A DNA stretch of 64,000 nucleotides, from NCBI RefSeq assembly GCF_014205015.1, contig NZ_JACHMO010000001.1, positions 2,852,001 through 2,916,000 of the forward strand. The letters run 5' to 3'. Source of the stretch: Saccharothrix ecbatanensis (GTDB lineage: Bacteria; Actinomycetota; Actinomycetes; Mycobacteriales; Pseudonocardiaceae). A model generated the notes under the pieces. It was not told where the DNA came from. It saw only the letters and a list, made by a program, of their open reading frames with translations, and did not search any database. The translations under genes were made by a program, and so were the position numbers. Shown piece by piece: positions 6,424-15,672 of the stretch (positions are counted from its first letter, which is position 1; every line of letters begins with the position of its first letter).

Positions 6424-6648
6424 CCGGAATAGAACCGATAGAGACGGGTATTTCGTGCGTGAGGGGCGCACGAGTGCTTGACCCGTGCGCCGATGGAAGG
6501 TTTTACTGCCGATACGCACGAGCTACCGAACAGTAGGTGATCCGGGCACTTCGAGCACGAGGGCGGGCGCCCTTTACCCACGATCCCGTTGACATTGTCG
6601 GCGCGACGGGACGGTATCGGACACGGCCCTGCCATGATTGGGGTCGGC

Positions 6649-7941
6649 ATGTCCCTGCTCAATCGACATGAACACGACTGGAATGAACGCGGCCGACTTG
6701 CGCGCCGCGGTCTGAGCCGCATAATGCTGTCCACTGCGGTCGCCGCGACCGTGTCGGCGGTCCTGGTCGCCCCGTCGGAGTCCGCGGTGCCCGGTGGCGA
6801 TCCGACACTGGCCGGAGGTGGGCGCGTGCAGTCGTTCTGGCTGCACCTGAACAGCACACCGGTGTCCGAGATCGACCTGTTCACCGAGGCGCGCAGGCGC
6901 AGTCACATCGTGCTGAACGCCTGGGAGGGCTCGCTGGTGCCCAGGCTCAAGGCGATGAACCCGGCCGTCCAGGTGTTCGTCTACAAGGACCTGTCGTCCA
7001 CCCGTTCGTACGCCTGCCGCAACGGGATCGACGACGCGCAGTTGCCGACCGGAGTGGGCTATTGCGAGGCGGAAAAGAACCACCCTGAGTGGTTCCTGCT
7101 CGATCCGCGAGGTCGCCGGTTCGAGTACAGCGGCTATTCGGGGCATTGGCAGATGGACGTGGGCAACACGGCGTATCAGAACGCTTGGGCCACCCGGGTG
7201 ATCGAGGACAGCACCGCTTCCCGATTCGACGGCGTCTTCATGGACAACGCATTGTTCCCGTGCGACGCTTATCATCCGGGCGTCTGTCCCGCGAAGTACC
7301 CGACCGACGCCGCGTTCCAGCAGGCGTACAAGTCGATGCTGGCGAACACCCGGGACGAATTCGTCGCGGCGGGGTTGAAGACGGTCGCGAACCTGTCCAA
7401 CGCCCGCCTCCACACCGGCGCTTGGGACGCCTACACCGAGCACCTGGACGGCGGCTTCGACGAGTGGTGGCTCACGTTCGACGACGACAACCTGCTGCCC
7501 GAGTACGCCGAGGGGTGGAGCAGGCAGGTCGCCGAGATCGCGTCGAACGAGGCCCGCGGCAAGCTCACGTGGGTGCAGCCGCACTTCACCGCGGGCAACG
7601 ACCGGGCGTTCCGCTACGCGCTCGCCGGCTACCTGATGGTCAACGGCGGCCACGCCGCGATAGCGGAGATCGAGGAGACCGACCGCTACGACGACGCGTC
7701 ACCGTGGCACCCCGAGTACAACTGGGACCTCGGCACGCCGTCCGGGCCCTACCGGTCCGTGGCGCGCAACGTGTTCCGGCGCGACTTCTCGTGCGGCATG
7801 GTCCTGGTCAACGCGAACCCGACCGGCAGCCGGTCCGTCACGGTGAAGCTGGGCAGCCCGCACGTCGACGAGCGCGGCATGGTCGTGAAGTCCGTGTCGC
7901 TGTCGGGCACCTCCGGCTCAATCCTCCGCAGGTTCTGCTGA
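6649..7941 (+). CDS. Secreted glycoside-hydrolase-like protein (GHL15-type)
   Basis: From the ATG at 6649 the product is 430 aa with a long twin-Arg-like secretion signal (RRGLSRIMLSTAVAATVSAVL, cleavage probably near SESA). The mature part resembles the hypothetical glycosyl hydrolase 15 family, a TIM-barrel group: FWLHLNSTP at the start, VFVYKDLSST, HPEWFLLDPRGRRF, WQMDVGNTAYQNAWA, then the DGVFMDNALF strand with acidic residues (D/DN) typical of a barrel active site, and ANLSN, FDEWWLTFDDD. The frame is open further upstream to 6589 but those residues look unlike a signal peptide. Substrate is unknown. It lies just before the lanthipeptide regulator in the same direction, separated by a 194-bp gap with a hairpin, so it is probably a separate transcription unit. 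Confidence 0.75.
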   Translation: MSLLNRHEHDWNERGRLARRGLSRIMLSTAVAATVSAVLVAPSESAVPGGDPTLAGGGRVQSFWLHLNSTPVSEIDLFTEARRRSHIVLNAWEGSLVPRLKAMNPAVQVFVYKDLSSTRSYACRNGIDDAQLPTGVGYCEAEKNHPEWFLLDPRGRRFEYSGYSGHWQMDVGNTAYQNAWATRVIEDSTASRFDGVFMDNALFPCDAYHPGVCPAKYPTDAAFQQAYKSMLANTRDEFVAAGLKTVANLSNARLHTGAWDAYTEHLDGGFDEWWLTFDDDNLLPEYAEGWSRQVAEIASNEARGKLTWVQPHFTAGNDRAFRYALAGYLMVNGGHAAIAEIEETDRYDDASPWHPEYNWDLGTPSGPYRSVARNVFRRDFSCGMVLVNANPTGSRSVTVKLGSPHVDERGMVVKSVSLSGTSGSILRRFC

Positions 7942-8135: not shown

Positions 8136-8903
8136 ATGGCGGTCTTGGTGCTGGGACGGCCCGTGGTGCGGTCCGGTGGGGTGCTGCGCCACCCGGCGCG
8201 GCGGATGGCGCGGATCCTGCTCGGTGTGCTGGCGTTGCGCGCCAACCGGGCGCTGCCGTTGGAGTGGATCATCGAGGCGCTGTGGCCGGGCCAGCCGCCG
8301 GCGTCGGCTGCGTCGAACGTGCGCACGCACCTGGCCGAGTTGCGCAGGCTGCTGAGTGCGGCCGACCAGCCGGGCATCGTGAGTTCGCGCGACGGGTACG
8401 TGCTGGTCGCGTCGCCGGACGGGGTGGACGTGACGTCGTTCCAGCGGCTCCTGGCCGAGGGCCGGGAGTTACGCGGCCACGGCGCGCACGACGCGGCGGC
8501 ACGGTCGTTGGCGCGCGCCGTGGGTTTGTGGCGGGGGCCGGTGATGGCCGGTGTGCCGGTGCCCGAGGCGGTCCGGCCGGATGTGACGATGCTGGACGAG
8601 CAGCGGATCAGTGCCGTCGAAGACCTCGTCGGCGTCCGGCTGGCGCTCGGTTTCCACGACGAGTTGGTGCCCGTGCTGGCCGGGCTGGTGGTCGAGTACC
8701 CGCTGCGGGAACGGTTCTGGCGGCACCTGGTCGCCGCGTTGGCCGCTGCGGGACGCCGCACCGAAGCCGTCGCGGTCTACCAACGGCTGGTGCGGGTGCT
8801 CGCCGCGGAGCTGGGCGTGGCGCCGAGCCGGGAGACGACGGAGCTGTTCGAGGCCGTTCGGCGCAACGACGCCGCCGCGCCGGAACCGGGTGGGTGCAAC
8901 TGA
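8136..8903 (+). CDS. SARP-like (BTAD) pathway regulator
   Basis: The 255-aa protein starts at the ATG at 8136, with AAGGGG seven bases upstream. An in-frame GTG lies 15 bases before it. Residues 1-90 form a winged-helix OmpR-type DNA-binding domain (LHPARRMARILLGVLALRAN..., ALWPGQPPASAASNVRTHLAELRRLL, SRDGYVL). Residues 95-250 are the bacterial transcriptional activator domain (DVTSFQRLLAEGREL, LWRGPVMAG, LDEQRISAVEDLVGVRLALG, ERFWRHLVAALAAAGRRTEAVAVYQRLVRVLAAELGVAPSRET). It has no NB-ARC or TPR extension, so it is a small SARP. The lanthipeptide precursor begins 82 bp downstream on the same strand, which makes this the probable activator of the locus. Short GTGTGC direct repeats lie ahead of that gene. 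Confidence 0.88.
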   Translation: MAVLVLGRPVVRSGGVLRHPARRMARILLGVLALRANRALPLEWIIEALWPGQPPASAASNVRTHLAELRRLLSAADQPGIVSSRDGYVLVASPDGVDVTSFQRLLAEGRELRGHGAHDAAARSLARAVGLWRGPVMAGVPVPEAVRPDVTMLDEQRISAVEDLVGVRLALGFHDELVPVLAGLVVEYPLRERFWRHLVAALAAAGRRTEAVAVYQRLVRVLAAELGVAPSRETTELFEAVRRNDAAAPEPGGCN

Positions 8904-8923
8904 ACGGCGCAGCGCGACTTTTT

Positions 8924-8957
8924 GTGTGCGCGACCGTGTGCACAGGATTTTTACACT
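8924..8957 (+). promoter_or_regulatory. Candidate SARP-type promoter before the lanthipeptide precursor
   Basis: Two GTGTGC(G/A) direct repeats (8924-8930 and 8936-8942, period 12) are followed nine bases later by TACACT (8952-8957), a plausible -10 element. Known SARP sites are heptamer direct repeats about 8 bp ahead of the -10, usually with an 11-bp period, so the match is suggestive only. AAGGGAG, the ribosome site of the precursor, follows. Confidence 0.35.
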
Positions 8958-8985
8958 CCGGCTCCCATCGAGGAAGGGAGCACGG

Positions 8986-9177
8986 ATGACTTCCGCAATG
9001 CTGCTCGACGCCGAGGAACTGGTGGCACGCTGGCGTGCCGGTCTCGACGAGTGGGACAACCCGGCCGGTCCGCTGTTCGCCAACGGCGAGTTCGCCGAGG
9101 GTGACATCGTGGCCTGCAACCCGCCGGGCAGCCGCTGCTCGTCGTGCACCGCGTCCGCGCCGGTGTACTGCTGCTGA
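8986..9177 (+). CDS. lanA: Class II lanthipeptide precursor (LanA)
   Basis: This 63-aa peptide starts at ATG 8986 after GGAAGGGAG. The N-terminal 43 residues form an acidic, helical leader (LDAEELVARWRAGLDEWDNPAG) with an NPAG-PL segment like the leaders of lichenicidin/mersacidin-type peptides. The C-terminal 20 residues CNPPGSRCSSCTASAPVYCC hold five Cys (44, 51, 54, 62, 63) and five Ser/Thr (49, 52, 53, 55, 57), so up to five thioether rings can be drawn. No GG or GA cleavage motif precedes Cys44. The likely junction is DIVA/C, which would give a core starting and ending with Cys, as in mersacidin. lanM starts two bases after the stop, so the pair is surely cotranscribed. Identity rests on position and composition. 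The ring pattern is unknown. Confidence 0.88.
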   Translation: MTSAMLLDAEELVARWRAGLDEWDNPAGPLFANGEFAEGDIVACNPPGSRCSSCTASAPVYCC

Positions 9178-9179
9178 CG

Positions 9180-12002
9180 ATGCCACTTGACGAGGTCGGC
9201 GAGCTCGACCGGACCCTGGATTGGCTCATCGGTCCCGCTTTGGACCGGTTGGCCCGTTGTGTGGCCGAGGTCGCCGACCTCGCCGCCGCCGAGGCGGACG
9301 CCGTGCTCGACGCCGCCCGCGACGCGTTGCTGGACACCGTGCGGCGCAAGGTCGTCCGCGTCATCGTGCTGGAGCTGAACGCGGCCCGGGTGACCGGCAA
9401 GCTCGTCGCCACCGACCCGGCCGGGCGCTGGGCGGAATTCCTGGCGCGGGCGGCGGAACCCGACTTCTGGCACGACCTCACCCGCCACTACCCGCACGTC
9501 GTGACCCGATTGCGCGCGGTCGTGACGAACCGGGTCGACGCCGTGCACACGATGGCGTCACGGTTCGCGGCCGACCGGTCCCGGCTGGCCGACCTGCTCG
9601 GCGCGGACGCCGGTGAGCTGCGCAAGGTCGAGTTCGGCGCGGGTGACAGCCACCGCGGTGGCCACACCGTCACGCTCCTGCACTGCACCGGTGGCACGGT
9701 CGTCTACAAGCCCCGTCCGATGGAGGTGGACCGGCGGCTGGCCGAGTTCCTGGCCGTGCTGACGGTCGGTGACGCCGAGGGCATCCGGGTGCCGCGCGCG
9801 ATCGTGGCCGACGGCTACGGCTGGGCCGAGCACGTAGCCCACCGGTACTGCGAGACGGACGCGGAGCTGGACGTGTTCTACCGCAACCTGGGCCACTGGC
9901 TGGCCGTGATGCGGCTGGTGTCCGGGACGGACCTGCACGCGGAGAACATCATCGCCTGCGGGCCGGTGCCGGTGGTGGTGGACTGCGAAAGCGTGTTCAC
10001 GCCCCGGCCGCCGCACCCGCCGACCGGCGCCGGCGAGGCGACCGACCTGATCGCCGAACAGCTGAACGGGACGGTGCTGCGGACCGGTCTGCTGCCCGGA
10101 CGTGGCGCGGGACTGGGCTGGCGTGGCGTGGACGGGTCCGCGATGGGCGGACTGCCGGGCGAGCAGCCCGACGTCGGGATGCCGGACCTGGTGGGAGCCG
10201 GCACGGACCAGGCGCGGGTGGTCATCGTGCCGCAGCAGCTGCCGCCGACCCGGAACCTGCCCAGCCCGCACCCCCGGCTGGCCCGCCACTGGCCGCGCGT
10301 CGTGGCGGGGTTCGACGAGATGGCGGCGCGGATCACGCGGCTGGACCAGGCCGGTGACCTGGCGCCGCTGCTGGCGACGTTCGCCGACTGCGTGGTGCGG
10401 GTGATCGTGCGCGACACCGAGTCGTACACCGAGCTGGCCCGGATGCTGTGGCACCCGGCGGGCCTGCACGACCAGGACACGGCGGAACGCAAGGCCAGGG
10501 CGTTGCTCGCGCGGCACTCGATGAACACCCGTGGGCCGGGCGACCCGGACGTCCACGCGGCCGAGGTCGCCGAGCTGCTGAACGGCGACATCCCCGTGTT
10601 CACCACCACGCCCGCCGAAGGTTGGCTGCACACGCCCGGCGACACGGTCTGCGGGCCGCGGGTCGACCAGGTGGAGTTGGCGTTGCACAACTGGCGCACC
10701 GCGGACCTCGCGCTGGAACGCCGCGTCACGCACGCCGCGTTGGTCAGCGCCTACCTGAACCAGGGCGGAGAACCCGACCTGCACCGCATGACCACCCCGC
10801 CACCAGCTCAGTCCTCTTTGGACACACGCCGACGCGCGCTGGCAGCGGAGCTGATGCGTGAACTGGCGGGCGAAGCGATCCGTGGCGGCGACGGCACGGC
10901 AACGTGGTTCGCGCCGATCCTGGACCGGTCCGGGTGGCAGACCACTCCCCTCACACCGGACCTGTACGGCGGCACGTTGGGTGTCGCCGTGCTGCTCGCG
11001 GCCTACCGCCGGGAGGTGGCCGCGGGCCGTGCCGACGCGGTGGACCACGTGTCGGACCTGCTCGACGCGACCGTGCGGACCGCCGCGTTGACCCAGCGGT
11101 GGTGGGCCGCCCAGTCGGAACACACCCGCCGCAGGCCCGATCCCGTGGGCGCGTACATCGGGCTGGGCTCGCAGATCTGGTGCTGGCTCACGCTGCACCG
11201 GCTGGGGCTCGACTGCCTGGAAGACGCCGAGTTCCTGGCCGCGCAGATGCCCGCCGCGATCGCCGCGAGCGAAGGCCCGGACGTGGTCGTGGGCACGGCG
11301 GGCGCGATCGTGCCGCTGCTGATGCTGGCCGAGCGGACCGGTCACGCGCGGTGGGTGGACGTGGCGGCAGACGCGGGCCGGAGGCTGGTGTCCGAGGCCC
11401 GCACCGACGGCGGCCTGGTCCGGTGGGGCGCACCGAACTGGCCGGACGGCATCGGCGGGTTCGCGCACGGAGCCACCGGCATCGGGTGGGCGTTGGGCAA
11501 GCTGGCGGCGGTCACCGGTGAACGCCGGTTCTCGACGTTGACCGAGGGCGCGGCGGCGTTCGAGGAGACCTGGTACAGCCGGGAGCGCGGAGCGTGGATG
11601 GACCCCCGTGAGCCGAACACGATCGCCGCCGCCTGGTGTCACGGCGCGGTCGGCGTCGGCCTGGCCACCTCGGACCCGGACGTGCTGCGTCGAGCGGCGG
11701 CTTCGGGTTTGCGGGACGGCATCGGGTGGACCCACACGCTGTGCCACGGCGACACGGGCACGTGGGAGCTCCTGACGACCGCGCTCGACGCCGGTGTCGC
11801 GCCCGACGGGCTGGACCGGGCGAGCCTGGACGCGATGGTGATCGGCAGCCTGGAGGCGAACGGGCCGACCACCGGTCTGGCGCGTGAGGTGTACTCGCCG
11901 AGCGTCATGTCGGGCTCGGGCGGCATCGCGTACCAGCTGCTGCGGATGCACCCGGATTGCGACCTGCCGTCCGTGCTGCTGCTCGGCGACGGCCCGACGT
12001 GA
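9180..12002 (+). CDS. lanM: Class II lanthipeptide synthetase LanM
   Basis: The 940-aa enzyme starts at ATG 9180. Residues about 60-450 are the dehydratase (DUF4135, lipid-kinase-like) with the expected motifs: GDSHRGGHTV (155-164), YKPRP (Lys177), GTDLHAENI (Asp251, His253, Asn256) and VVDCE (Asp268). It would phosphorylate and eliminate Ser/Thr of the precursor. Residues about 570-930 are the LanC-like cyclase with GGFAHGATGIGWAL and all zinc ligands: Cys820 in WCHG and Cys855-His856 in LCHGDTG. Length is near the family norm. All catalytic residues I can check are intact, so an active synthetase is expected. Its stop overlaps the GTG of the transporter gene (GTGA), and the precursor lies two bases upstream. 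Confidence 0.95.
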   Translation: MPLDEVGELDRTLDWLIGPALDRLARCVAEVADLAAAEADAVLDAARDALLDTVRRKVVRVIVLELNAARVTGKLVATDPAGRWAEFLARAAEPDFWHDLTRHYPHVVTRLRAVVTNRVDAVHTMASRFAADRSRLADLLGADAGELRKVEFGAGDSHRGGHTVTLLHCTGGTVVYKPRPMEVDRRLAEFLAVLTVGDAEGIRVPRAIVADGYGWAEHVAHRYCETDAELDVFYRNLGHWLAVMRLVSGTDLHAENIIACGPVPVVVDCESVFTPRPPHPPTGAGEATDLIAEQLNGTVLRTGLLPGRGAGLGWRGVDGSAMGGLPGEQPDVGMPDLVGAGTDQARVVIVPQQLPPTRNLPSPHPRLARHWPRVVAGFDEMAARITRLDQAGDLAPLLATFADCVVRVIVRDTESYTELARMLWHPAGLHDQDTAERKARALLARHSMNTRGPGDPDVHAAEVAELLNGDIPVFTTTPAEGWLHTPGDTVCGPRVDQVELALHNWRTADLALERRVTHAALVSAYLNQGGEPDLHRMTTPPPAQSSLDTRRRALAAELMRELAGEAIRGGDGTATWFAPILDRSGWQTTPLTPDLYGGTLGVAVLLAAYRREVAAGRADAVDHVSDLLDATVRTAALTQRWWAAQSEHTRRRPDPVGAYIGLGSQIWCWLTLHRLGLDCLEDAEFLAAQMPAAIAASEGPDVVVGTAGAIVPLLMLAERTGHARWVDVAADAGRRLVSEARTDGGLVRWGAPNWPDGIGGFAHGATGIGWALGKLAAVTGERRFSTLTEGAAAFEETWYSRERGAWMDPREPNTIAAAWCHGAVGVGLATSDPDVLRRAAASGLRDGIGWTHTLCHGDTGTWELLTTALDAGVAPDGLDRASLDAMVIGSLEANGPTTGLAREVYSPSVMSGSGGIAYQLLRMHPDCDLPSVLLLGDGPT

Positions 12003-13903
12003 CCGGCGCGACCGGCGTGACCGGCGCGAAGTCCGAGGAGGGAGACCCGCGCGACGGTGCCTTGGTCACCCCGCACTGGCAACTGGACGACACCGCCGCC
12101 ACCGCACCCCGCCGGGTCTTGCGGGGTCTGCCGTCGGCCACCTGGCCCGTGCTCGCCATGATCCGCCAGGCCGCGCCGGTGCCCGCACTGGCCGTCGCGG
12201 TGATGCAGGTGGTGTCGGGGCTCGCGGCGGCGTTCGGGCTGTTCGCCACGACGGGTGTGCTGACCGAGTTGCTGGCGAGCGGACCGACCACCGAACGGGT
12301 GTTGGCCGCCCTGCCGAACCTGCTGCTCGTCGGCGCGGCGTTCGGGCTGCGCGGCGCGATGGACGTCGGGGTGTCCCTCGCCCACGCACGCATCACGCCC
12401 GCCGTGCGGCGGTTGGCCGAGGAACGGCTGTACGCGGCCAGTCTCACCGCCGACCTGGCCGCGTTCGACGACTCCCGGTTCCACGACCGGATGCACCGCG
12501 CCCGCGACCGAGGGCTGTTCTACCTCGAACGCGCGGCCGACAACCTGGTCGAACTGCTCGGCGCCGTGCTGGGCATCGTCGCGGCCACCGGCAGCCTGGC
12601 CGTGCTGCACCCGATCCTGGTGCCGGTGCTGCTGCTGGCCGTGATCCCGGACGGGTGGGCGGTGCAGCGGGCCGCGAAGCTCGCCTACGCCAGCGTCGGC
12701 CGGACCGTGGCGCTGGACCGGCGGGTGCAGATGGTGGCCGGTCTCGCCACCGAACGTCAGCCTGCCGCCGAGATCCGCGCCTACCAGGCGGAACCGTTCG
12801 TGCTGCACGAGTACCGGGTGGCGGCGGACCCGTTGCGGGACGAGGACGTCCGGCTCGCCACCGCGCAGGCCCGGGTGCGCGGAGCCGGCCGTGCGCTCGC
12901 CGGGCTCGGTCTCGCGGTGACCTACGTCGTGCTGGGCGGGCTGGTGCGGTACGGCTGGGTGCCGCTGGCCGTGGCGGGCACGGCGGCGATCTCGATCCGG
13001 GTGGCCACGAGCGCGTTGAACCGGCTGGTGCTGGCCGCCAACCAGCTCGTGGAGCAGGGCATGTACGTCGCGGACTACCAGGAGTTCCTGGCCTCCGCCG
13101 CACGGTCCGCGCAGCGCGACGGCGTCGACGCCCCGATCGATCCGAGCCGGGTGACGCTGGACCGCGTCAAGTTCCACTACCCCGGCAGCGCCCGACCGGC
13201 GGTCCGGGACGTGTCGTTGACCATCGAGCCCGGCGAGACGATCGCCCTCGTCGGCGAGAACGGGTCGGGCAAGACCACGCTGGCCAAGCTGATCGCCGGG
13301 CTCTACACGCCGACGTCCGGCGCGGTCCGCTGGGGCGGGCACGACATCGCGCTGGTCGACCGGAGCCAGGTCGCCGACCGGGTGATGATGGTGCTCCAGG
13401 ACCCGGTCCGGTGGCCGCACACGGCCCGGGTGAACGTCCGCGTCGGCAGGCACGACCGGCCCGACCCGGACGGACTGGCGGTGCTGGACGCGGCGACGCA
13501 GGCCGGCGCGGACGAAGTGGTCGACCAGCTTCCCGACGGCTGGCACACGTTGCTGTCCAAGCAGTTCCGGGGCGGCGTGGAGCTGTCCGGCGGCCAGTGG
13601 CAGCGGCTCGCCGTCGCCCGCGGGCTCTACCGGGACGCCCCGCTGCTGATCTGGGACGAGCCCACCGCGCCGTTGGACGCCAAGGCCGAGTTCGCGGTGT
13701 ACGAGTCGCTGCGCGCGTTGGCCGAGGACCGGACCGTCGTGCTCATCACGCACCGGCTGGCCAGCGTGCGGCACGCGGACCGGATCCTCCTGCTGCACGA
13801 AGGGGAGTTGGTCGAGGAGGGCACGCACACCGAACTGCTGGCGTTGGGTGGACGGTACGCGGAGCTGTCCGAGTTGCAGAGCCGGATGTACGCCGGTGCT
13901 TGA
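11999..13903 (+). CDS. ABC exporter (permease-ATPase), LanT-like without C39 peptidase
   Basis: The GTG at 11999 overlaps the lanM stop and gives 634 aa. Residues about 55-340 form a six-segment type I exporter membrane domain. Residues about 380-625 form the ATPase with Walker A (ENGSGKTTLAK), Q loop (VLQDPV), signature (VELSGGQWQRLAVARGL), Walker B (LLIWDEPT) and H loop (VLITHRL). There is no N-terminal C39 double-glycine peptidase, unlike typical class II LanT. Export or self-resistance for the lanthipeptide is the natural role. Leader removal must be done by another protein. The N-terminus has a small VTGATGVTGA repeat, and an alternative start slightly downstream is possible. Confidence 0.9.
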   Translation: MTGATGVTGAKSEEGDPRDGALVTPHWQLDDTAATAPRRVLRGLPSATWPVLAMIRQAAPVPALAVAVMQVVSGLAAAFGLFATTGVLTELLASGPTTERVLAALPNLLLVGAAFGLRGAMDVGVSLAHARITPAVRRLAEERLYAASLTADLAAFDDSRFHDRMHRARDRGLFYLERAADNLVELLGAVLGIVAATGSLAVLHPILVPVLLLAVIPDGWAVQRAAKLAYASVGRTVALDRRVQMVAGLATERQPAAEIRAYQAEPFVLHEYRVAADPLRDEDVRLATAQARVRGAGRALAGLGLAVTYVVLGGLVRYGWVPLAVAGTAAISIRVATSALNRLVLAANQLVEQGMYVADYQEFLASAARSAQRDGVDAPIDPSRVTLDRVKFHYPGSARPAVRDVSLTIEPGETIALVGENGSGKTTLAKLIAGLYTPTSGAVRWGGHDIALVDRSQVADRVMMVLQDPVRWPHTARVNVRVGRHDRPDPDGLAVLDAATQAGADEVVDQLPDGWHTLLSKQFRGGVELSGGQWQRLAVARGLYRDAPLLIWDEPTAPLDAKAEFAVYESLRALAEDRTVVLITHRLASVRHADRILLLHEGELVEEGTHTELLALGGRYAELSELQSRMYAGA

Positions 13904-15287
13904 GCTGGTGGGGCCGGACGATCCGCGGTACGCGTGGTCGCGCAGCCAGTTCATCGGACGACCGCACGAGGTGCTGCCGCACTCGGTCGCCCGCTGCGCC
14001 TCCGCCGCCGACGTGGTCGCCGCTCTCGCGTTGGCCCGGACGCGCGGGTGGCCGTTCGCCGTTCGGGGTGGCGGGCACAGCAACGCCGGCTACTCCAGCA
14101 CGACCGGTCTGCTGCTGGACCTGACGCCGACGGACTCGCTGTCCGTCTCGGGTGACCTGGTGACGGTCGGCGGCGGCGTCCGGATCGGACGGTTGGCCGA
14201 GGCGTTGGCCCCTTCGGGTCGGCTGGTGCCGGTCGGGTCGTGCCCGTCGGTCGGGGTGGTCGGCGCGGCGCTCGGTGGCGGGTTCGGCAGTCACGGGCGG
14301 TTGCACGGGCTCACCTGTGACGCGCTGGTGTCAGCGGAGGTCGTGCTGGCGTCGGGGGACGTCGTGGAGGCGTCCGAGGAACGGGAGGCCGACCTGTTCT
14401 GGGCGCTGCGCGGCGCGGGCGGTGGCAACTTCGGCGTGGTGACCCGTGCGACGTTCCGGACCATGCCCGCCCGGCCCCGCACCCATCTGAGGATGTCCTG
14501 GGACTTCCACCATGCCGCCGCGTTGATCGACTGGTGGCAGCGGTGGGCGCCCGATGCGCCGGACGGGGTGTCGGTGGAACTGGTCGTGCTCGGTCCGGAG
14601 TCCCCGGACGAGGAGCCGGTGGTGATGCTGGTCGGGGCGGTGCCCGACCGTGACGCGCTCGGGTTTCCGGACGCGCTCGGGTTTCCGGCCGACGCCCAGC
14701 CGGTGTTCACCGAGGTGGTCGACGTGTCCGCCGCCGACGCCGTGTTGCTGCACGCGACACCGCACTCGGCCGTCGCCCGTGATCCGGTGAGCATCCCGCT
14801 CGTGCACGAGCGGCCCGGGATGTCGACCGCCAAGACCGAGTTCTTCGACCGGGCGTTGCCCGAGGAAGCGGTGGCGGCGCTGCTTGAGCACTTCGCGGCG
14901 GGTCGCCGGCACGGTGAGCTGCGGGAGATCGCGTTCACGCCGTGGCGTGGCGCGTACGGGCGGGTGGCGTCGGACGCCACCGCGTTCGCCCACCGTGACC
15001 AGGCGTTCCTCGTCAAGCACACGGTCCTGGTCGGCCCGAACGGCGCGGCGCGGCGTGGGCAGGAGGTGCTGGACCGCCTGGCGGCGGCGTGGGCGATCCT
15101 CCACCCCTGGGGCACGGGTCGGGTGTACCCGAACTTCCCCGACCCGGCCCAGGCCGACTGGCAGACCGCGTACTACGGGGCCAACGCGGACCGCCTACGT
15201 GCCGTCAAGTCGCACTACGACCCCGACGACAGGTTCCACTTCGCCCAGTCCATCCCCGGGACGGCTCAGGTCGGGAAGATCCAGTAG
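13896..15287 (+). CDS. BBE-type FAD-linked oxidase (bicovalent flavin predicted)
   Basis: The GTG at 13896 overlaps the exporter stop by 8 bp, giving 463 aa. The N-terminal FAD-binding (PCMH/VAO) domain carries GGGHSNAGYSS, whose His is the usual 8-alpha-histidyl attachment site, and GSCPSVGVVGAALGGGFG, whose Cys matches the 6-S-cysteinyl site of berberine-bridge-enzyme-like oxidases. The C-terminal BBE motif region is present (VYPNFPDP, WQTAYYGANADRLRAVKSHYDPDDRFHFAQSI). There is no signal peptide, so it acts in the cytoplasm. Coupling to the lanthipeptide genes makes oxidative tailoring of the peptide the simplest idea (inference). An 18-bp perfect tandem duplication (14652-14687) inserts a second DALGFP. 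It converges with the small secreted gene and overlaps its 3' end by 22 bp. Confidence 0.9.
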   Translation: MLELVGPDDPRYAWSRSQFIGRPHEVLPHSVARCASAADVVAALALARTRGWPFAVRGGGHSNAGYSSTTGLLLDLTPTDSLSVSGDLVTVGGGVRIGRLAEALAPSGRLVPVGSCPSVGVVGAALGGGFGSHGRLHGLTCDALVSAEVVLASGDVVEASEEREADLFWALRGAGGGNFGVVTRATFRTMPARPRTHLRMSWDFHHAAALIDWWQRWAPDAPDGVSVELVVLGPESPDEEPVVMLVGAVPDRDALGFPDALGFPADAQPVFTEVVDVSAADAVLLHATPHSAVARDPVSIPLVHERPGMSTAKTEFFDRALPEEAVAALLEHFAAGRRHGELREIAFTPWRGAYGRVASDATAFAHRDQAFLVKHTVLVGPNGAARRGQEVLDRLAAAWAILHPWGTGRVYPNFPDPAQADWQTAYYGANADRLRAVKSHYDPDDRFHFAQSIPGTAQVGKIQ

Positions 15288-15490
15288 AGGTCCCAGCCGT
15301 TGTACTTCCAGCAGACGTGCTCGTCCACGTCCCAGGGCTTCTTCTGGCCCGCCTCTTCGCATTCCTGCTTGGTTTCGTAGGTGGCGACGTACTGCCAGTA
15401 GTCCATGGCCACCGCTTGACCTGGTGCGGCTGACGCCGGGGCGGTTGCGGCGCCCAAGGCGAGCAGGGCCGCGACGACCAGTGCGCGCAT
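15266..15490 (-). CDS. Small secreted protein (74 aa)
   Basis: ATG 15490 follows an AAGGGGG ribosome site. The peptide has a Sec signal (MRALVVAALLALGAATAPASA) and a mature part of about 53 residues with two Cys (KQECEEAG and EHVCWKYNG), probably one disulfide, and many aromatic residues. Such small secreted Cys-pair proteins are common in actinomycetes. I recognise no function. Its 3' end overlaps the oxidase gene tail to tail, and five 16-bp direct repeats lie about 100-180 bp upstream of the start. Confidence 0.75.
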   Translation of the reverse strand: MRALVVAALLALGAATAPASAAPGQAVAMDYWQYVATYETKQECEEAGQKKPWDVDEHVCWKYNGWDLYWIFPT

Positions 15491-15592
15491 CGGTTCCCCC
15501 TTCACGGAAAACGCTTTCCACGCGGCGGTACACCGATCCCAGCACAGTGGCCGGCAACCTGGCAATGCGTCGGCCGACGACCCGCACGGGGT

Positions 15593-15672
15593 ACCGAAGT
15601 CACTCGCTACCCAAGTCACGCGGTCCCGAAGTCACGCGGTCCGGAAGTCACGCGGTCCCGAAGTCACGCGCC
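15593..15672. repeat. Five tandem 16-bp repeats (AAGTCACGCGGT core)
   Basis: Five head-to-tail 16-bp units (15593, 15609, 15625, 15641, 15657) share the core GAAGTCACGCGGTCC. The middle three are nearly identical and the outer ones are degenerate. They occupy the upstream region of the small secreted gene and the downstream end of the 15687-16100 gene. The regular phase could suit cooperative protein binding, or it may be a simple minisatellite. Confidence 0.8.

Follow-up and report, generated by a model that had tools for sequence, protein, structure and literature searches.

The closest described systems are the rhodanocins (LanII) of Dyella sp. 333MFSha, which are DUF6229 class II lanthipeptides. 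According to the accessible part of their description, the product carries four dehydrations and three rings; it was cut with AspN and was not cleaved by LahT150 (PMC9576775). In Lysobacter, 21 of 27 unique class II precursors were assigned to DUF6229 in the available portion of the source; these gammaproteobacterial precursors are known from bioinformatics only, and no oxidase is mentioned there (PMC11451712). Flavin enzymes reported from lanthipeptide pathways comprise LanD decarboxylases, luciferase-like monooxygenases and halogenases, and the main text of that paper, as far as accessible, contains zero matches to PF01565 or PF08031 (PMC7268733).

Here we analysed a 64,000-nucleotide stretch of the Saccharothrix ecbatanensis genome (the window), in which a DUF6229 precursor gene and a class II synthetase gene (LanM) lie in one cassette with a gene for a BBE-like flavin oxidase. 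LanDs, luciferase-like monooxygenases and halogenases are protein families other than the BBE-like enzymes. An earlier note on this DNA had called the pairing of a lanthipeptide with a BBE-like oxidase unfamiliar. The searches turned up no characterised homologue that shares both this core and the oxidase. In the parts of the literature searched, most subscription journals lying outside that scope, no paper was found that places a BBE-like enzyme in the biosynthesis of a lanthipeptide or any other RiPP; where lanthipeptides and berberine bridge enzymes did appear in one paper, the two were unrelated. Judged by the accessible description, the rhodanocins resemble the window in combining a DUF6229 precursor with a class II synthetase and differ from it in that no oxidase is described (PMC9576775). 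The window oxidase would share flavin-dependent tailoring of lanthipeptides with the enzymes covered in the available part of PMC7268733.

The five-gene cassette and its control region

Profile matches and comparison with relatives indicate that the five genes of the locus almost certainly form a class II lanthipeptide cluster with a precursor of the DUF6229 family. The five genes were found where the earlier note had placed them, all on the + strand and each with the expected domains by profile match. The features are as follows.

8136 to 8903, + strand: SARP-type regulator with a BTAD domain, 255 aa (PF03704, 144 bits; present in 16 of 16 loci with the same core, window included)
8923 to 8941, + strand: tandem heptamer YGTRTRC-N5-YGTRTRC with a 12-bp period, likely SARP operator (16 of 16 loci)
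8952 to 8957, + strand: TACACT, a -10-like hexamer 10 bp past the second heptamer (same or similar hexamer in aligned relatives)
8970 to 8980, + strand: GA-rich putative ribosome binding site of the precursor gene, proposed from the sequence
8986 to 9177, + strand: DUF6229 precursor peptide, 63 aa (PF19740, 79.8 bits against a curated cut-off of 25; 11 homologues)
9115 to 9174, + strand: conserved C-terminal 20 residues of the precursor, CNPPGSRCSSCTASAPVYCC, likely core (alignment of 12 precursors; 16 loci)
9180 to 12002, + strand: LanM, 940 aa, a class II lanthipeptide synthetase (TIGR03897, score 536 bits, cut-off 304; alignment to LicM2)
11999 to 13903, + strand: ABC exporter, N-terminus uncertain (PF00005, 112 bits; no C39 peptidase domain listed)
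13896 to 15287, + strand: BBE-like FAD oxidase, 463 aa (FAD_binding_4 and BBE domains; His61 and Cys116 as the expected FAD anchors)

The genes had been described as separated by 2-bp gaps or overlaps throughout. This is correct for three junctions (a 2-bp gap between precursor and LanM, overlaps of 4 bp between LanM and exporter and of 8 bp between exporter and oxidase) but not for the SARP/precursor junction, which spans 82 bp. The oxidase start given previously, 13848, was replaced by the GTG at 13896, the most likely start because relatives carry an ATG there: this was the aligned codon in 14 of 15 close relatives, and in the fifteenth (L009) an ATG in the same CTPM context was aligned elsewhere. 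The precursor bounds were also corrected, to 8986-9177. All five genes recur in all 15 other loci with a CNPPGSRC core, and dN/dS stayed below 0.5 for every gene in each of nine pairwise comparisons (0.25-0.38 for the oxidase, 0.15-0.32 for LanM), indicating purifying selection. The arrangement is therefore not a product of chance. Spacing deviates in L011, with ~1.1 kb between SARP and precursor, and in L004, with ~0.66 kb between LanM and exporter; in genome G110 the cassette is present with two LanM matches, and this cluster had probably been noticed before without being described. Outside the cassette, a GHL15 (hypothetical glycosyl hydrolase family 15) protein is encoded upstream at 6589-7941 (+), as it is in L002, L003 and L004. 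A convergent 117-aa ORF with a signal-like stretch (15266-15619, - strand) overlaps the oxidase 3' end by 22 bp; it is kept in L002 and partly in L003 and has no Pfam match.

The precursor, which lies next to the class II synthetase gene, consists of a leader and a Ser/Thr/Cys-rich core, as in class II systems, and its DUF6229 profile match and homologue alignment uphold the reported Cys-rich precursor beside LanM. A protein search with the precursor returned 11 homologues, ten of which keep CNPPGSRC; homologue P0015 has only its C-terminal part in common with the window core. The core of all 16 CNPPGSRC loci contains five Cys against four invariant Ser/Thr; the cores of L049 and L186 also have five Cys. 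The core had been thought to match no known lanthipeptide. This was not sustained, given that the precursor belongs to DUF6229, that it has 11 database homologues and that another DUF6229 peptide was produced and solved as a lanthipeptide in the accessible part of PMC9576775. The core is thus uncharacterised but no orphan, because DUF6229 already includes class II lanthipeptide precursors.

LanM is a fused dehydratase and cyclase, with DUF4135 (PF13575, 325 bits) and LANC_like (PF05147, 107 bits) both above cut-off. Its residues 47-935 align to LicM2 with YKPR, DxHxEN, VDxE and both CHG motifs in place; we take these motifs to be the dehydratase and zinc sites, and the alignment thereby confirms the earlier reading of intact dehydratase and zinc residues. 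A second LanM is encoded in the same genome (G000:C1:5144780-5147371), falls outside the DUF6229 group and has close relatives elsewhere in the genus. No C39 peptidase was found among the Pfam matches of the exporter, an absence of a profile match only, and no Gly-Gly was seen by eye directly before the conserved core. A leader protease inside the cassette was considered and rejected, as Pfam detected none among the five proteins and no further neighbour family was widely common.

Upstream of the precursor, the tandem heptamer, the -10-like element and the precursor start follow in this order in all 16 same-core loci. SARP sites are usually described with 11-bp spacing, compared with 12 bp here. 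An initial version of the operator pattern, in which each heptamer began with T, had zero matches in the window or genome; the pattern was widened after viewing the relatives, which in part builds in its agreement with them. The widened pattern matched once in the window against 0.03 expected, and genome-wide (9.7 Mb) it gave four matches, the same number as the reversed control. Three of these four overlap in one other short tandem repeat far from the cluster (G000:C1:5253409-5253458), which may be a target of a regulator or a simple repeat.

Linkage of the oxidase to DUF6229 loci

To define the distribution, 40 DUF6229-LanM loci were compiled, comprising the window, 15 loci with the same core, eight divergent loci (L043-L050), three plasmid loci (L165-L167) and 13 from a second family (L186-L198). 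The oxidase adjoins 25 of the 40: all 16 same-core loci, two divergent loci, no plasmid locus and seven of the second family. It is absent from 13 (six divergent, three plasmid, four second-family), and the other two lie near contig ends: in L195 the LanM is cut, and in L198 no oxidase occurs in 8.9 kb downstream, less than 1 kb upstream being covered. L194 was scored as oxidase-absent on the basis of only a weak upstream match (31% over ~165 residues). For comparison, 56 further LanM loci were picked by hand among the matches listed for the window's family (60 picked, four dropped); none has a BBE match within ~9.9 kb, or less at contig ends. The association noted previously is thus a conserved link and no chance neighbourhood. 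In most close relatives the oxidase gene abuts or overlaps the exporter gene.

Ten of the same-core loci are named in database records and were confirmed by the genome scan: nine carry the titles Saccharothrix, Kibdelosporangium, Lentzea or Umezawaea, and the tenth is labelled Rhodococcus rhodnii. Five further ones came from genomes of the window's genus. The Rhodococcus record (L006, JOAA01000032.1, strain NRRL B-16535) looks misnamed, its genome (G093) grouping with three Kibdelosporangium genomes. The database precursor/oxidase pairs P0014/P0026, P0007/P0052 and P0013/P0048 probably lie on one contig each. Across 297 family genomes, all 16 full-length oxidase matches of at least 61% identity, the window's own included, were inside the cassette. 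Four matches had 45-47% identity; G140 is linked, and two of the other three (all but G259, which stands outside the neighbourhood reading) have no nearby LanM match.

DUF6229 itself was found in at least 22 of the 297 family genomes, at least six of 397 genomes of the order sample (five over cut-off) and at least three of 396 of the phylum sample (over cut-off only in the window's own), these samples and those of the further families overlapping. In a second family of the order it was found in at least 11 of 200 genomes (ten over cut-off), and in a third family in at least one of 24. The best three of 176 plasmid records with LanM matches (Nonomuraea and two Embleya) encode DUF6229-like precursors and LanM without the oxidase.

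The oxidase is absent from 13 of 40 loci, among them L047 and L196, the cores of which closely resemble that of oxidase-linked L046; it is therefore dispensable for the basic peptide. A substitute oxidase at oxidase-negative loci was considered and rejected: in a Pfam scan of 20 neighbour ORFs, the 15 from oxidase-negative loci (L043-L045, L047, L048 and L050, with L165-L167 and L192-L197 outside the scan) share no oxidoreductase. Among close relatives without the oxidase, an AMP-binding protein follows the exporter in L045 (4641-5117) and L047 (14696-18577), with a PP-binding domain in L047, and a P450 is encoded nearby in L047. The LanM frames of L045 and L048, both oxidase-negative, come in pieces, by frameshift or sequencing error.

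The oxidase protein has the FAD_binding_4 and BBE domains, and fold comparison agrees with the BBE-like family. His61 and Cys116 occupy positions that we take to be the FAD attachment sites. Among the linked oxidases, the anchoring His is present in 25 of 25 and the anchoring Cys in 24 of 25, L193 having Asn in its place; in database row P0126, of the same subfamily, Asn replaces the anchoring His. The earlier description as bicovalent holds as to the presence of both anchor residues, and bicovalent attachment itself is predicted from these conserved residues only. It is no hallmark of the subfamily, because in most outside homologues the anchor column or a neighbouring one also holds a Cys. 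No signal peptide was seen by eye in the oxidase N-terminus.

Trees of the oxidase and LanM

All trees were unrooted, and both LanM trees and the first oxidase tree were quick searches. In a 67-row oxidase tree, the 25 linked oxidases and eight database sequences were located on one side of a branch with 100/99 support, and 34 homologues on the other; the first, quick tree (138 rows) gave the same split for the 18 linked loci known at that stage. All 24 DUF6229-type LanMs likewise grouped together, apart from 56 others, on a branch with support 100 in a quick tree. A LanM tree was a check proposed in the earlier note, and it places the window LanM within this group. A further quick LanM tree of 38 rows has subgroups that largely match those of the oxidase tree. 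L188-L191 fall together next to the CNPPGSRC clade, with support of 85 in the LanM tree and only 51/23 in the oxidase tree. L046, L049, L186, L187 and L193 are separate from this combined clade and lie among oxidase-negative loci in the LanM tree.

On the LanM tree, the oxidase has to be gained or lost five times, and starred branches force three of these changes. From this pattern we infer one recruitment of the oxidase followed by several losses, a direction that is itself inferred from unrooted trees. A decayed cassette occupies the window's chromosomal site in G088 (L158, 9216-10081): it consists of the exporter-gene end and an internally deleted oxidase, the shortened oxidase matching at 85%, and is flanked by the same GHL15 and response-regulator neighbours. 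Related bacteria seem to have inherited the oxidase and the lanthipeptide genes as a unit, suggesting a chemical modification not yet described.

Proposed pathway and the role of the oxidase

In the proposed pathway, the SARP regulator would bind the tandem heptamer site and switch on the operon. LanM would bind the DUF6229 leader, dehydrate Ser/Thr and couple them to Cys; with four invariant Ser/Thr in the core, as many as four thioether rings could form. The calculated monoisotopic mass of the unmodified precursor, counted without disulfides, is 6633.96 Da, which would fall to 6561.91 Da after four dehydrations and to 6543.90 Da after five. The BBE-like oxidase, with covalently held FAD and O2, would then oxidise the LanM product by two electrons in the cytosol, after which the ABC protein may export the peptide and a protease encoded elsewhere may remove the leader. 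We hold with good confidence that the product is a DUF6229 class II lanthipeptide in which the LanM product is oxidised by a dedicated BBE-like flavoprotein. That the oxidase acts in the lanthipeptide pathway appears very likely, and it probably acts on the peptide itself.

The substrate of the oxidase must suit all linked precursors. The segment C-x(2-3)-C-[S/T]-x-S occurs in every oxidase-linked locus and would be the most likely oxidation site, although placing the oxidation inside it remains tentative. With groups drawn by hand, the 16 same-core loci counted as one and the two contig-end loci, both motif-free, left out, all 10 linked groups carry the motif, as do 6 of the 9 unlinked ones (Fisher p = 0.087), a weak association that is no more than suggestive. 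L187 (G1025, 9064-10938) carries a prochlorosin-like array of five tandem DUF6229 precursors before one LanM, oxidase and exporter. Four of these precursors have variable, Cys-bearing cores and the motif, and the fifth has no Cys. If the oxidase acts on the peptide, this array of variable precursors implies that it would tolerate varied cores.

The alternative that fares best, though we judge it unlikely, is that the oxidase belongs to the pathway without acting on the peptide: it would protect the producer, or handle a small partner molecule by detoxifying, supplying or recycling it. Most substrates of characterised BBE-like oxidases are small molecules. Consistent with this, the closest solved structures of named activity among the fold matches listed are small-molecule or sugar enzymes. 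EncM, PpBBE1, glucooligosaccharide oxidase, TamL and GilR share 24-31% identity with the window oxidase in fold alignments, and no RiPP enzyme is named in the entry titles of the fold matches listed. By sequence, the best solved-structure matches are 9p1o and 9p1p, neither of which is among the fold-comparison matches listed. The accessible text of a 2024 review of the BBE family, moreover, has no word starting with RiPP, ribosomal, lanthi or lanti. However, the oxidase tracks DUF6229-LanM across genera and two families, and no further family that might provide such a partner was present in more than 6 of 24 loci by a rough ORF clustering that missed real genes in some loci.

A role on a leftover thiol, by disulfide formation or sulfur oxidation, is quite doubtful. 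The five Cys against four invariant Ser/Thr in the core, with five Cys in all 16 same-core loci, L049 and L186, would leave such a thiol, and a role for the fifth Cys agreed with 17 of the 18 linked loci known at first. It was dropped in view of the oxidase-linked cores of L046, L188, L189, L190, L191 and L193, which carry four Cys, and by unlinked L197, which carries five; nor is there a thiol oxidase among the 50 fold matches listed.

LanDs belong to a different flavoprotein family from the BBE-like oxidases. Formation of a C-terminal aminovinyl-cysteine or similar group by LanD-like oxidative decarboxylation is highly improbable: linked precursors end in Cys-Cys in nine of ten groups, and LanD flavoproteins perform such a reaction in other lanthipeptides (PMC7268733, accessible part), but the four Cys-bearing precursors of L187, beside an oxidase of the same subfamily, have Ala, Arg, Tyr and Tyr as their last residues, which makes decarboxylation unlikely for the subfamily. 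The same L187 precursors, lacking a terminal Cys, led us to reject C-terminal Cys-Cys as the common oxidation site. Least credible is a passenger gene, a stable neighbour outside peptide biosynthesis; its absence from 13 of the 40 loci would suit this, but the oxidase gene abuts or overlaps the exporter gene in most close relatives, belongs to one subfamily with largely matching trees, is found at none of the 56 other LanM loci, and was eroded together with the exporter gene in G088.

We therefore return to oxidation of the LanM product by the BBE-like enzyme. If this is true, the lanthipeptide would gain an additional crosslink or a double bond in its backbone or a side chain. The fullest form of the proposal, on which we regard the evidence as evenly balanced, is that one oxidase subfamily was recruited once into DUF6229 clusters, was kept in Pseudonocardiaceae and a second family of that order, and installs an oxidative modification new to RiPPs on a ring-bearing peptide. 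DUF6229 lanthipeptides themselves were already known; the genetic association of the oxidase with DUF6229-LanM is well supported by the comparative sequence data. It is defined by 25 loci, largely matching trees and natural oxidase-negative controls with closely similar cores. BBE-like enzymes form rings, new bonds and double bonds elsewhere, and a member acting on peptides might prove useful as a catalyst. With a BBE-like oxidase that carries covalent flavin and is tied to a LanM lineage, RiPP biosynthesis would gain a new class of enzymes.
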